DNA from: Pseudomonadota bacterium
GTDB lineage: Bacteria; Myxococcota; UBA9042; PHBI01
Reading direction: 5' to 3'
DNA length: 11,073 nt
Assembly (NCBI GenBank): GCA_005788935.1
Contig: SYAK01000071.1
Location: 1 to 11,073 of the forward strand
Shown here piece by piece: positions 1,156 to 10,418 of the stretch. The notes under the pieces are model-generated. The model searched no databases. It saw only the letters and a program-made list of their open reading frames with translations, and had not been told where the DNA came from. A program made the position numbers and the translations under genes. Positions within the stretch are counted from its first letter, which is position 1; each line of letters begins with the position of its first letter.

Positions 1156-1212
1156 TCGCCACGCCGGGAACAGAGGGCAGGCCGCATCCGACCCTCTCCA
1201 ACGAGCGAGCCC

Positions 1213-2358
1213 ATGGGACAGCACGAAGCCCCCGCCGAGAACGTCGCCCTCTTCGGCATCACCGGGGCCCTCGGCCGCGAGCTCCAGGCCGCGCTCGAGG
1301 TCGACCAGGACGCCATCGGTCGCTTCATCCCGGTGGCCGGGACAGGCTCGGCGGGGGCCTCCGTGACCTGGCGCGGCGCGAGCCTCCCGGTCGTGGCGCC
1401 CGGCGCAGTCGACCCGTCGAAGGTCGACATCGCCGCCCTCGCCTGCCCCGCCATCGTCGCACGTCGCGAGGGGCCGCGACTCGTGAAGGCGGGTGTCCGG
1501 GTGGTCGACGCCTCCGGAGGGCTCGCACGGACCCCCGTGGCGTCCGGCCTCGCAGGGCCCGCTCGGCTGCGCTGGCCGAGACTGGCCAGCTGCGGCGACC
1601 TCGCGGACGAGACCGTCATCGCCCTCCCTGGCGACATCGCCTCGACGCTCGCGCCCGTGCTCGAGGCGCTGACGGCGGCCGCGGCGCCAGGCGTCGGACT
1701 CCTGCCGCCCGTCGTGACCGTCGACGCGGTGGTCCTCCGCTCGGCGGCCGCCGCGGGGCGTCGCGGGGTCCAGGCGCTGTCGTCCCAGGCCGTCGCGCTG
1801 CTGAACTACCAGCCCGTCCTCGACCCGGCACCCTTCCCGGCCGCGCTCGCGTTCAGCGCCGTGGCCCCCGCGCAGGATGAGGCCCTGCTCGCCGAGGGGA
1901 CAGCCGCCGACGAGCTGCTGGCGCTGCTGCCCGCCCTCGCATCGGTCCCGATCGGCATCGTGCCAGTCCTCGTGTCGGCCTTCTCCGGTCTCGCCGCGGT
2001 CCTGACCGTGCGATTCCGCGAGACACCGTCGCTCGCACGCGCCGAGGCCGCCCTCCTCGCCCACCCCGACGTCGAGGCGGCCGCCGCGCTGCGCGACCTC
2101 GATGACGTGGACCTCGAGGACGACGACGACAGCGACGCGGCCCCGACAGGGCGACCCGCCCCGACCGCAGCCGAGGATGGCGCGAGAGGCGCCGCAGGGC
2201 TCCGGGACGCCCTCGACAGCGACGCGGTCCGGGTCAGCTCACCGAGCCTCGGAGCAGACGGGGCGCTGCGCGTCGTCGTGATGGCGGACCCACTGCACCG
2301 GACCGCGGCCGCCTGCGAGACCATCATCGCGCGCTGGCTCGCGGAGGCCTCCGACTGA
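1213..2358 (+). CDS. usg: Usg-like aspartate-semialdehyde dehydrogenase homologue, catalytically dead
   Basis: This 381-residue protein follows the fold of aspartate-semialdehyde dehydrogenase (ASADH) from end to end. It has an N-terminal Rossmann glycine loop (FGITGALG, 14-21), the AGRRGVQAL helix (181-189) and a C-terminal VVMADPLHRTAAA helix (355-367). The catalytic residues of true ASADH are missing. The NPNC(S/T)T cysteine loop reads VIALPGDIASTL (135-146). The glutamine of the YQAVSG loop aligns with R176. The RVPV arginine aligns with I249, and the GH(S/A) histidine aligns with L260. The altered cysteine loop is close to that of E. coli Usg (VIAVPDSLTSQL, recalled from memory), and the Q-A-x-x-LLN segment near 192-198 also matches Usg. 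An acidic, probably disordered insertion (296-309) is unusual. No Shine-Dalgarno motif precedes the ATG at 1213. Role unknown; a partner-binding or regulatory pseudoenzyme is an inference. Confidence 0.8.
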   Translation: MGQHEAPAENVALFGITGALGRELQAALEVDQDAIGRFIPVAGTGSAGASVTWRGASLPVVAPGAVDPSKVDIAALACPAIVARREGPRLVKAGVRVVDASGGLARTPVASGLAGPARLRWPRLASCGDLADETVIALPGDIASTLAPVLEALTAAAAPGVGLLPPVVTVDAVVLRSAAAAGRRGVQALSSQAVALLNYQPVLDPAPFPAALAFSAVAPAQDEALLAEGTAADELLALLPALASVPIGIVPVLVSAFSGLAAVLTVRFRETPSLARAEAALLAHPDVEAAAALRDLDDVDLEDDDDSDAAPTGRPAPTAAEDGARGAAGLRDALDSDAVRVSSPSLGADGALRVVVMADPLHRTAAACETIIARWLAEASD

Positions 2359-2359
2359 C

Positions 2360-2434
2360 GTGCCAAAGTGACATGTTCGCGTGACACGCCGTGCCACTGT
2401 GCCACTGTGTCACACGCTGCTGTCACGCTGGCAC
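2360..2434. repeat. 75-bp mirror-spaced dyad of eight GTGNCA half-sites
   Basis: Starting 2 nt after the usg stop, five GTGNCA copies read forward (2360, 2368, 2381, 2391, 2399) and three read in reverse (TGTCAC 2408-2413, TGTCAC 2421-2426, TGGCAC 2429-2434). Around the centre at 2397 the outer sites are exactly symmetric: GTGCCA 2360-2365 mirrors 2429-2434, GTGACA 2368-2373 mirrors 2421-2426, and GTGACAC 2381-2387 mirrors GTGTCAC 2407-2413. The middle is a direct repeat, GTGCCACT twice (2391-2406). It could be a multi-site operator or enhancer for the downstream sigma-54-like promoter, or an RNA hairpin after usg; no T tract follows. Confidence 0.75.
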
Positions 2435-2486: not shown

Positions 2487-2502
2487 TGGCATGATTCTTG
2501 CC
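2487..2502 (+). promoter_or_regulatory. Sigma-54-type promoter (-24/-12) of the FN3/CFI-box gene
   Basis: TGGCA (2487-2491) and TTGC (2498-2501) are separated by 6 nt, which fits the consensus TGGCAC-R-N4-TTGCW with correct GG/GC spacing; the sixth base is T and the final base C instead of the consensus. The predicted start of transcription is near 2513, only about 3 nt before the ATG at 2516, which implies a leaderless or nearly leaderless mRNA. The dyad centred at 2397 would sit about 115 bp upstream of that start, the usual distance for an enhancer-binding protein. A weak alternative housekeeping -10 (TAGCGA, 2503-2508) has no matching -35. Confidence 0.55.
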
Positions 2503-2515
2503 TAGCGAGTCCGAC

Positions 2516-3736
2516 ATGAAGACGCTCCGTCCGTTCATGACCCTCGGCGCCCTCGCGCTCCTCGCTGCAGCGCCCGCGGCCCGCGCGGAAATCCCGAACT
2601 ACGCCTTCGTCGGCATCGAGGGCGAGGGCGCCCTCGAGGGGCAGCTCTCCGACCGCCTCGGCGTGACCGTGAACGCGACAACGCACGTCATCAACGTCGA
2701 CGACTGCGAGCGCTATCGTGGCGGCGAGGCGACGGTGACCTTCCGCGTGAGCCCGCTGCCCGCTGGCAACTGGCAATACGCGGTGGCCTACGCCCCGCCT
2801 GGCAAGACGTGCGCGACGACCAACGCGAACCCCGAGGCGACCGACGGGTCGTGCTTCGTGCCCGCCGCGCAGCGCGAGCTCACGGAGACCTCGATCTCGC
2901 TGCGCGTCGACTTCGCGAGCCTCATCGGCAGCGACTGCGACGCAGACACGGAAGGCACGGCGAAGCTGTACCTCATCCTCGAGGAGCCGACGCTCGCGTC
3001 CGTGAAGTACGAGACCGTGGACGTCCTCACCGACCTCGAGCCGCCGTCCGCGCCGACACTCGACGAGGCGACAGGTGGGGACGAGCGGATCGCGCTGGGC
3101 TGGAGCGACGAGGTCAACGACGCGAGCGCGACCACCTACACGGTCTACTGGGACGACGTGGCGTTCGGCGACGACGATCTGGACGCGGTCTCCTCCGCCG
3201 ACGACATCGGCGCGACGTCCTACGACATCGACAGCGCGCTCGAGAACGGCCGGACCTACCATGTCGGCGTCGTCGCGGTCGATGACGCGGACAACGCCTC
3301 GCCGCTGTCGAACATGCTGACCGCGGTCCCCGAGGAGACCCTCGACTTCTGGGAGGGCTATGTCGCGGCTGGCGGCGACGAGCCGGGCAACTTCTGCTTC
3401 ATTGCGACCGTTGCGCACGGGACGGCGATGCACGAGCACCTCGACATCCTGCGGGCCTTTCGGGACGATGTCCTTGGCACCACCGCGACAGGTCGCGCCT
3501 TCGTCGAGTCGTACTACCGCTACGGGCGCTTCGCCGCAGCCTGGATCGCGGACGAGCCGACCCTTCGCGCCGCGGTGCGCGTGATCCTGGCGCCCGTCGT
3601 CTGGTGCGCGTGGCTCGTGCTGACGCTCGGCGCGCCTGGCGCCTTCGCTGTCGGGCTCGCCCTGACCGCGGCCTTCATCCTCGCGCGGCGACGCCTTGGT
3701 GCGACACGCCCGCACCTCGCCAAGGAGCCGTCGTGA
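2516..3736 (+). CDS. Secreted FN3 protein with C-terminal CFI-box and membrane anchor
   Basis: This is a 406-residue exported protein. The first 24 residues form a Sec signal peptide with cleavage likely after AARA. Residues 25-175 are an all-beta-looking domain of unknown family with four cysteines (64, 99, 113, 141), suggesting disulfides. Residues 176-272 are a fibronectin type III domain (PPSAPTL start, WSDEV core, YTVYWDD strand, TYHVGVVAVD strand). A CFI-box follows: CFIATVAHG (294-302), then an HLDILRAFRDD and RAFVESYYRY pattern (309-336). The C-terminus has hydrophobic segments (about 357-390) ending in RRRLGATR. In known CFI-box-CTERM proteins the motif precedes such a tail; surface or envelope location is inferred. 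The ATG at 2516 is required by the signal peptide, although it has no Shine-Dalgarno motif and lies directly after the promoter. It overlaps the next gene by one base. The ligand is unknown. Confidence 0.85.
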   Translation: MKTLRPFMTLGALALLAAAPAARAEIPNYAFVGIEGEGALEGQLSDRLGVTVNATTHVINVDDCERYRGGEATVTFRVSPLPAGNWQYAVAYAPPGKTCATTNANPEATDGSCFVPAAQRELTETSISLRVDFASLIGSDCDADTEGTAKLYLILEEPTLASVKYETVDVLTDLEPPSAPTLDEATGGDERIALGWSDEVNDASATTYTVYWDDVAFGDDDLDAVSSADDIGATSYDIDSALENGRTYHVGVVAVDDADNASPLSNMLTAVPEETLDFWEGYVAAGGDEPGNFCFIATVAHGTAMHEHLDILRAFRDDVLGTTATGRAFVESYYRYGRFAAAWIADEPTLRAAVRVILAPVVWCAWLVLTLGAPGAFAVGLALTAAFILARRRLGATRPHLAKEPS

Positions 3737-4488
3737 TGCGTCCGCTGATGATGAGCCTCGCAAGGACCGGTCTGGCCGCTGGGACGGCCGCGTTGGCGTT
3801 GACCTCGGGCGGAGCCGCGGCGGCGAAACCGCAGGAGGGCCCTGGCCGCATGTTCGAGCTGCACGGGGGCAACTACGGGCCCGCAGTCGACTCGACCTTC
3901 GGAGACGCGGACAAGACCCCATGGGCCGATGTCTTCGGCGGCAAGCAGCTGACGCTCCTGCGGGGGCACTTCGACTGGCAGCTGTGGAACGGCTTCGGGA
4001 CCGTCGCGGTCGGTCTCGGCGGGGGCTACGGCTGGGTCGATGGCTACGCGCGCGACGGCGACGGCGAGGCGACCGAGGACGAGGTCGGCTTCAACCTCAT
4101 GCCCCTCTCGCTGTCGCTCGTCTACCGCTTCGACTGGGCCACAGCCCGTTACGGGTTTCCCCTCGTGCCGTACGGCAAGGCCGGGCTCTCGGCGGGGCTG
4201 TGGTGGGCGACCGACGCGAACGACGACATCTCGAGCGCGGTCGGTGCAGGGGGCGCCTCGCGGCGCGGCTCGGGCCTGACCTTCGGCTGGCACGCCGCGG
4301 GCGGGCTCATGTTCCTCCTCGACGTGCTGGCGCCTGGCATGGCGGCGAGCATGCGCGACGAGGCCGACGTACGAAACACCTACATCTTCGCAGAGTTCAG
4401 CCATAACGTGCTGGACGACTTCGGCGGCGGTCGTTCGCTCGTGCTGAGTGACGACGCGCTCTCCTTCGGTCTCGCCTTCGAGTTCTGA
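3736..4488 (+). CDS. Outer membrane beta-barrel protein, MXAN_2562-like
   Basis: This is a 250-residue outer membrane protein. The signal peptide covers about residues 1-30 (ending GGAAAA). The mature part opens with FELHGGNYGPAVDSTFGD and a DVFGG motif. It continues as alternating amphipathic strands rich in aromatic and glycine residues (VAVGLGGGYGWVDGYA, LSLVYRFDW, PLVPYGKAGLSAGLWW) and ends in a terminal phenylalanine (LAFEF), as expected for a BAM-assembled barrel. The opening and the VPYGKAGL strand match what I recall of the MXAN_2562 family of myxobacteria. The ATG at 3736 overlaps the previous TGA by one base and has AAGGAG 8 nt upstream inside the previous gene; a GTG at 3733 is a possible alternative. 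The tight coupling suggests that the FN3/CFI-box protein and this barrel act together at the cell envelope. The substrate or cargo cannot be deduced. Confidence 0.8.
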   Translation: MRPLMMSLARTGLAAGTAALALTSGGAAAAKPQEGPGRMFELHGGNYGPAVDSTFGDADKTPWADVFGGKQLTLLRGHFDWQLWNGFGTVAVGLGGGYGWVDGYARDGDGEATEDEVGFNLMPLSLSLVYRFDWATARYGFPLVPYGKAGLSAGLWWATDANDDISSAVGAGGASRRGSGLTFGWHAAGGLMFLLDVLAPGMAASMRDEADVRNTYIFAEFSHNVLDDFGGGRSLVLSDDALSFGLAFEF

Positions 4489-10344: not shown

Positions 10345-10418
10345 TGGAGGCGCCACCCGGGATCGAACCGGGGGTGGAGGATTTGCAGTCCTCTGCCTTA
10401 CCACTTGGCCATGGCGCC
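10345..10418 (-). tRNA. tRNA-Cys (anticodon GCA)
   Basis: The 74-nt minus-strand gene folds into a full cloverleaf. The acceptor is GGCGCCA with TGGCGCC, the D stem GCC/GGC, the anticodon stem GAGGA/TCCTC with loop CTGCAAA (anticodon GCA at 10386-10384), the variable loop CACC, and the T stem CCCGG/CCGGG with loop TTCGATC. The discriminator base is T (U73), the identity base of bacterial cysteine tRNAs, and the CCA end is encoded (10347-10345). It has its own promoter and terminator, so it looks like an independent transcription unit. Confidence 0.97.

Follow-up and report, generated by a model that had tools for sequence, protein, structure and literature searches.

The eight TGNCA cores clustered upstream of an MXAN_2561-type gene in the window (the whole stretch of 11,073 nt that was analysed) are very probably the upstream activating sequence (UAS, enhancer) of a bacterial enhancer-binding protein (bEBP) acting at a predicted sigma-54 promoter of the MXAN_2561/MXAN_2562 operon. 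The motif and the promoter lie together in the window, are conserved in related Myxococcota and are paired almost exclusively with one another there. The promoter had escaped the earlier note on this DNA, which described the array as eight GTGNCA half-sites for several dimers of one protein or, alternatively, as a long RNA hairpin. The array is located in a gap of 157 bp (2359-2515) between the stop codon of a usg-like gene (2356-2358) and the start codon at 2516, and begins 2 nt past that stop, as had been claimed. The features of this region are as follows.

1180..2358, plus strand: aspartate-semialdehyde-dehydrogenase-like (usg-type) gene (PF01118, 6.4e-09), start approximate, ORF 97-2358
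2361..2373, no strand assigned: putative UAS dyad 1, TGCCA-aag-TGACA, starting -126 from the -24 element, near the -129 of L064 and the -131 of L065
2382..2386, no strand assigned: single half-site TGACA at -105, exactly 39 bp before the half-site at 2421
2392..2404, no strand assigned: putative overlapping UAS dyad, TGCCA-ctg-TGCCA, at -95
2400..2412, no strand assigned: putative UAS dyad 2, TGCCA-ctg-TGTCA, at -87, exactly 39 bp after dyad 1
2421..2433, no strand assigned: putative UAS dyad 3, TGTCA-cgc-TGGCA, at -66
2487-2501, plus strand: predicted sigma-54 -24/-12 promoter TGGCATGATTCTTGC, the sole TGGCAN6TTGC match in the window, at a position conserved in relatives
2516..3736, plus strand: MXAN_2561-type secreted protein with a CFI-box-CTERM domain (NF041770, 6.2e-22, above cut-off)
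3736..4488, plus strand: MXAN_2562-family outer-membrane beta-barrel protein (NF040596, 5e-61, above cut-off)

The NCBIfam matches of the usg-like gene are ASADH models, every one of them below cut-off. The product of 2516..3736 also matches the MXAN_2561 family model NF045522 below cut-off (8.6e-20), and the barrel gene that follows is presumed to belong to the same operon. The family scans of the window ORFs left out the minus-strand ORF 94-2238. Neither MXAN_2561 nor MXAN_2562 is mentioned by name in the literature searched.

The TGNCA cores start at 2361, 2369, 2382, 2392, 2400, 2408, 2421 and 2429 and together span 73 bp. All eight of the GTGNCA half-sites described earlier are present (2360, 2368, 2381, 2391, 2399, 2407, 2421 and 2429), and the pattern gives 12 matches over both strands at these eight positions as the core, TGNCA, is palindromic; each site is therefore readable on either strand. 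This clustering is far above chance, as 300 dinucleotide shuffles of the whole window gave at most four cores in such a span and none of 5000 shuffles of the 157-bp gap reached eight. The tandem GTGCCACT repeat is located at 2391-2406 as previously reported. Four pairs of cores are 8 bp apart and three pairs are 39 bp apart, arrangements reached in only 2 and 5, respectively, of 1425 accepted trials in which eight sites were placed at random. The three pairs mirrored about 2397 are likewise present, but at least three mirrored pairs arise in 82 of the 1425 accepted placements; exact mirror symmetry is therefore not the notable feature of the array, and on this test it was rejected as the functional one.

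The predicted sigma-54 promoter scores 10 of 11 consensus letters, is TGGCAC-N5-TTGC-like with the GG and GC 10 bp apart, and has a -24 element of TGGCAT rather than TGGCAC. A single TGGCAN6TTGC match in the 11 kb of the window compares with 0.04 expected. At a looser cut-off, a second sigma-54-like match with 10 of 11 letters (TGGGACGGACGTTGC) is found at 98-112 within coding sequence. Relative to the -24 element, the dyads of the window start at -126, -95, -87 and -66.

Related loci were compared at the DNA level in relatives with at most 57% protein identity; proteins from the family and order of the nearest genomes are only 37-57% identical, whereas more similar proteins (98, 78, 71 and 64% identical) are encoded on other contigs. 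Scanning the barrel alignment against species genomes gave 33 loci. In 12 of these a strict or near-strict sigma-54 element precedes the barrel by 1.28-1.44 kb, and some loci end short of that distance; the corresponding distance in the window is 1.25 kb. A profile search matched 232 of 377 genomes, often through the CFI-box part only, and the best 30 loci were taken. Conservation upstream of orthologues, the lack of which would have counted against the earlier note, is borne out for the dyad in these relatives: a TGNCA-N3-TGNCA dyad is kept near the promoter in 18 of the best 30 MXAN_2561 loci. It is absent from the other 12, two of which (L091 and L093) contain isolated dyads with no sigma-54 element. 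At the level of sequence, the predicted sigma-54 promoter and the dyad are thereby kept together upstream of orthologues. The 18 loci include that of G135, which has a non-canonical -12 element and two dyads 40 bp apart.

The association was also measured from the promoter side. A dyad lies within 200 bp of 16 of the 17 MXAN_2561 sigma-54 promoters scoring at least 10/11, the exception being L079. This comparison omitted promoters less than 900 bp from the locus start and so left out L086, which carries both promoter and dyad. Only 2 of 37 other strict sigma-54 promoters have a dyad: in L057 it starts at -77, and in the other case it abuts the promoter at -19; by mononucleotide shuffle, the chance of a dyad is about 0.002 per 200 bp. 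The 37 control promoters are a subset of the 187 strict sigma-54 matches from 12 genomes, where the reversed pattern gives 29. The L057 site, at 1424 of that locus, is TGTCAAGGTGTCA; the strict sigma-54 element 77 bp downstream of it precedes an unassigned gene. The sites of the relatives are located at -66 to -131, with one at -180 (L077) whose promoter match is doubtful, and they share a TTGACAAAATGGCA-like consensus whose spacer is rich in A/T. The spacers of the window (AAG, CTG, CTG and CGC) are poorer in A+T than these, and each window site may therefore be weaker.

The dyad is nearly confined to this promoter. Across seven neighbourhoods of MXAN_2561-type genes, amounting to 90.9 kb, 10 of 10 dyads sit at this promoter, so that the scattered copies against which the earlier note had cautioned do not appear in this DNA of the relatives; in the window, four of four dyads sit inside the array. 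The motif TTGACANNNTGGCA has 28 matches in 15 genomes, compared with 13 for its reversed control. A sigma-54-like element is found within 250 bp of 10 of the 28 matches, and nine of these 10 are the MXAN_2561 promoter. The array is thus best read as the UAS of a bEBP with very few targets. On the minus strand of L139 (G011, contig C91), TTGACAATTTGGCA occurs at 621 of the reversed locus, 78 bp before the sigma-54-like sequence CGGCATGGGGATTGC. A gspC-like type II secretion gene follows CGGCATGGGGATTGC, an assignment supported only by a T2SSC match just under the Pfam cut-off, and in this one genome the gene may be a second target of the regulator. In G007, identical sigma-54-like 15-mers (TGGCACGGACGTTGC) occur on contig C138 at 558, 603 and 648, exactly 45 bp apart, and also at 396; these are perhaps a tandem repeat.

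The spacing of the half-sites also follows a pattern in the relatives. In 14 of 18 relatives the promoter-proximal dyad is preceded by a TGNCA at a distance of 31-33 bp (exactly 32 bp in 11), and a whole second dyad is found at 39-40 bp in four, namely G012, G001, G002 and G135 (L064, L065, L066 and L082). The two dyads of L066 start at -105 and -66. In the window it is the middle dyad (2400) that has a half-site 31-33 bp upstream, and the promoter-proximal dyad (2421) has none. Counted from the first core, the two-dyad arrangement of G012 and G002 reappears in the window in the cores at 0, 8, 39 and 47, and the cores at 21, 60 and 68 resemble the same module shifted by 21 bp, with the core at 31 left over. 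The first module is positioned at -126/-87, near the -129/-90 of G012, and the second at -105/-66, equal to that of G002. The window array looks like a denser version of the site found in the relatives and may consist of two interleaved modules.

The best candidate for the regulator, somewhat likelier than not to be the right one, is a protein of FHA-AAA+-HTH type whose gene comes directly after one for a Ser/Thr protein kinase. When the sigma-54 activators of six dyad genomes were censused, six bEBP families proved common to all six, and a representative of the candidate family contains FHA, Sigma54_activat and HTH_8 (Fis HTH) domains. The gene of this FHA-bEBP is found upstream of the target on the same contig, in divergent orientation, at about 6 kb in G046, 8 kb in G003 and G006 and 16 kb in G010, and a Ser/Thr kinase gene immediately precedes it in both genomes checked (G010 and G046), at 16426-18285 of L255 and 2734-4476 of L256. 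In the nearest genomes (G001, G002 and G012) the target's contig offers 6-11.5 kb of upstream DNA, in which this FHA-bEBP is not encoded; the remaining dyad genomes have the FHA-bEBP and the target on different contigs. A clear orthologue is present in 16 of 18 dyad genomes; in G011 it is split over contigs, and in G041, which has the dyad, none was found.

The predicted recognition helix varies with the site. An orthologue could be read in 17 dyad genomes, and its helix is GIHRK[ST]LEY in 16 of them and GVHRKTVEY in G007. Seven genomes lack a promoter-linked dyad, and the five that could be read have DIHRKTAEY, DMHRKSVEY or SMHRKSVEY; the helix of G236 is unreadable and G130 has no match at the orthologue level. 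G135 was at first scored as dyad-less and has the dyad-type helix, and its two dyads were then found. G184 has a different helix, yet carries TGACAGATTGCCA, without a sigma-54 element. Shared ancestry could account for both the helix pattern and the gene linkage. Autoregulation of the bEBP was rejected, as the bEBP and kinase genes of L253-L256 have no dyad nearby.

It is quite conceivable, though it falls short of being probable, that the array is an enhancer for some other bEBP, such as a member of one of the response-regulator families, of the second FHA family or of another. Five families besides the candidate are encoded in all six censused genomes, and in G041 the dyad occurs although the kinase-linked family was not found. 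Set against this, the kinase-linked family is the only one among the strong bEBP matches to lie within 17 kb on the target's contig (G010 and G046), a search for this family alone found it nearby in G003 and G006 too, and its recognition helix changes with the presence of the dyad.

That the array is instead the operator of a repressor or of a sigma-70 activator, with the sigma-54 promoter nearby by coincidence, is improbable. Protein binding alone does not show activation, and most sites of the relatives lie 66-131 bp upstream, where other regulators could act as well. The dyad nevertheless tracks the sigma-54 promoters of the MXAN_2561-type gene, no sigma-70-like site was found in 2300-2600, and sigma-54 promoters require an upstream activator according to PMC4641369.

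The hairpin reading, as a terminator or attenuator of the usg-like transcript or as a stem in an antisense RNA, is more improbable still. An inverted-repeat search of the array gives 37-nt arms that are 70% complementary, and the two window strands fold better than their shuffles (z of -3.0 and -4.9, or -2.7 and -6.0 on repeat folding). This pairing mostly follows from the self-complementary TGNCA cores, and the stem is not conserved: 15 dyad-keeping relatives folded over the matching stretch give z-scores of -2.4 to +1.5, the -2.4 being one strand of L066. The array also lies upstream of the predicted transcript start, no terminator-like site is present in 2300-2600, and Rfam gives no match at the array. 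An intrinsic terminator, or a conserved stem with a U-run, was accordingly rejected from the site search, Rfam and the folding of relatives. The sole RNA-family match in the window is a tRNA gene on the minus strand at 10348-10418. With the long hairpin discarded, what stands of the earlier proposal is the binding of several dimers of one protein, which the conservation of the dyad at the orthologues' predicted sigma-54 promoter supports. The internal tandem GTGCCACT repeats might suggest a repeat of REP-like or mobile type, or low-complexity sequence arisen by chance, but the likelihood of this is negligible: none of 5000 local shuffles matched the array, and no dyad occurs off the promoter in 90.9 kb of the relatives' DNA or elsewhere in the window.

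The distance from the promoter to the start codon bears on the message. Transcription from sigma-54 promoters starts as a rule 12 nt after the GC of the -12 element, and the start codon at 2516 is located 14 nt after this GC, which places the predicted transcription start of the window at about 2513 with a leader of about 3 nt. The start codon is 13-16 nt after the GC in 13 of 18 loci (the window and 12 relatives), with signal-peptide-like N-termini, and 37-92 nt after it in the other five. As a control, an ORF start at 12-17 nt is found in 6 of 42 strict sigma-54 promoters, a set that includes copies of the target promoter. The MXAN_2561 sigma-54 transcripts of those 13 loci are therefore predicted to be leaderless or nearly so, with leaders of 1-4 nt if transcription starts 12 nt after the GC, and the Shine-Dalgarno would consequently not be transcribed.

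The enhancer reading implies a mechanism of a kind that is well known, a sigma-54 promoter switched by a bEBP enhancer, at which transcription requires rpoN and an activator that hydrolyses ATP. Dimers of the bEBP would bind the TGNCA-N3-TGNCA dyads through the Fis-type helix-turn-helix and assemble into an active AAA+ ring. Looping of about 53 bp of DNA would then bring the ring to the sigma-54 RNA polymerase waiting at 2487-2501 and let it open the promoter of the MXAN_2561/MXAN_2562 cell-envelope operon; the binding, the looping and the sigma-54 dependence of the window promoter are all inferred from the DNA. If the FHA-bEBP encoded directly after the Ser/Thr kinase is the regulator, kinase signalling would drive the operon. 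Tentatively, and with a good deal of speculation, this may be extended to a line from kinase to FHA-bEBP dedicated to essentially one cell-envelope operon, with a spacing code (a dyad and a half-site at 32 bp, or a pair of dyads at 39-40 bp) that several Myxococcota lineages have retained and a leaderless or nearly leaderless message. The window would then contain two interleaved modules shifted by 21 bp (two helical turns), and its eight half-sites would provide room for four dimers, allowing the active ring to form directly on the DNA.

An odd repeat thereby becomes a testable circuit with an enhancer motif, a main conserved target and a named candidate regulator with a kinase alongside. The target is a surface protein and an outer-membrane barrel of no known function. 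To our knowledge, few lines from a Ser/Thr kinase to an FHA activator have a known promoter, so a clean target site would allow reconstitution. The strict spacing in the relatives and the apparently interleaved version with eight cores together provide a natural series of sites with which to determine the number of dimers required by a sigma-54 enhancer.

No description of the TGNCA-N3-TGNCA motif with this target was found in the literature searched, which was covered at the abstract level. The candidate resembles the FHA-domain enhancer-binding proteins of Myxococcus in combining an FHA, a sigma-54 activator and a Fis HTH domain and in being encoded after a Ser/Thr kinase, and we know of no binding site of those proteins that matches TGNCA-N3-TGNCA. 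The other close likenesses are to characterised enhancers. The LuxO upstream activating sequence at the qrr promoters is given as TTGCAWWWTGCAA in PMC11443567 and PMC10162802. Like the array dyads, it consists there of two 5-bp half-sites with a 3-bp A/T spacer, and the sigma-54 start has a single copy or two of it about 90-120 bp upstream. It differs in its half-sites, TTGCA/TGCAA rather than TGNCA, in its regulator, a Vibrio response regulator, and in its small-RNA targets; TTGCA is absent from the gap at 2359-2515, where the cores are TGNCA. The repeat of the FlrA region (GTCA-N6-TGGC) and that of DVU2894 (yGTCA-N6-TGACr), described in PMC4641369, share the letters GTCA and TGGC with the TGTCA-N3-TGGCA of the window, but have a spacer of 6 rather than 3 and belong to flagellar regulators. 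The GcsR enhancer is described in PMC4894688 as three 18-bp sites upstream of gcvH2 and resembles the array as a multi-dyad enhancer upstream of an RpoN site with room for three dimers; it differs in its sequence (TGTAACG-N4-CGTTCCG), its TyrR-like regulator and its metabolic operon. As this last example indicates, enhancers with multiple sites upstream of sigma-54 promoters are ordinary, and the array of the window has the form of one.
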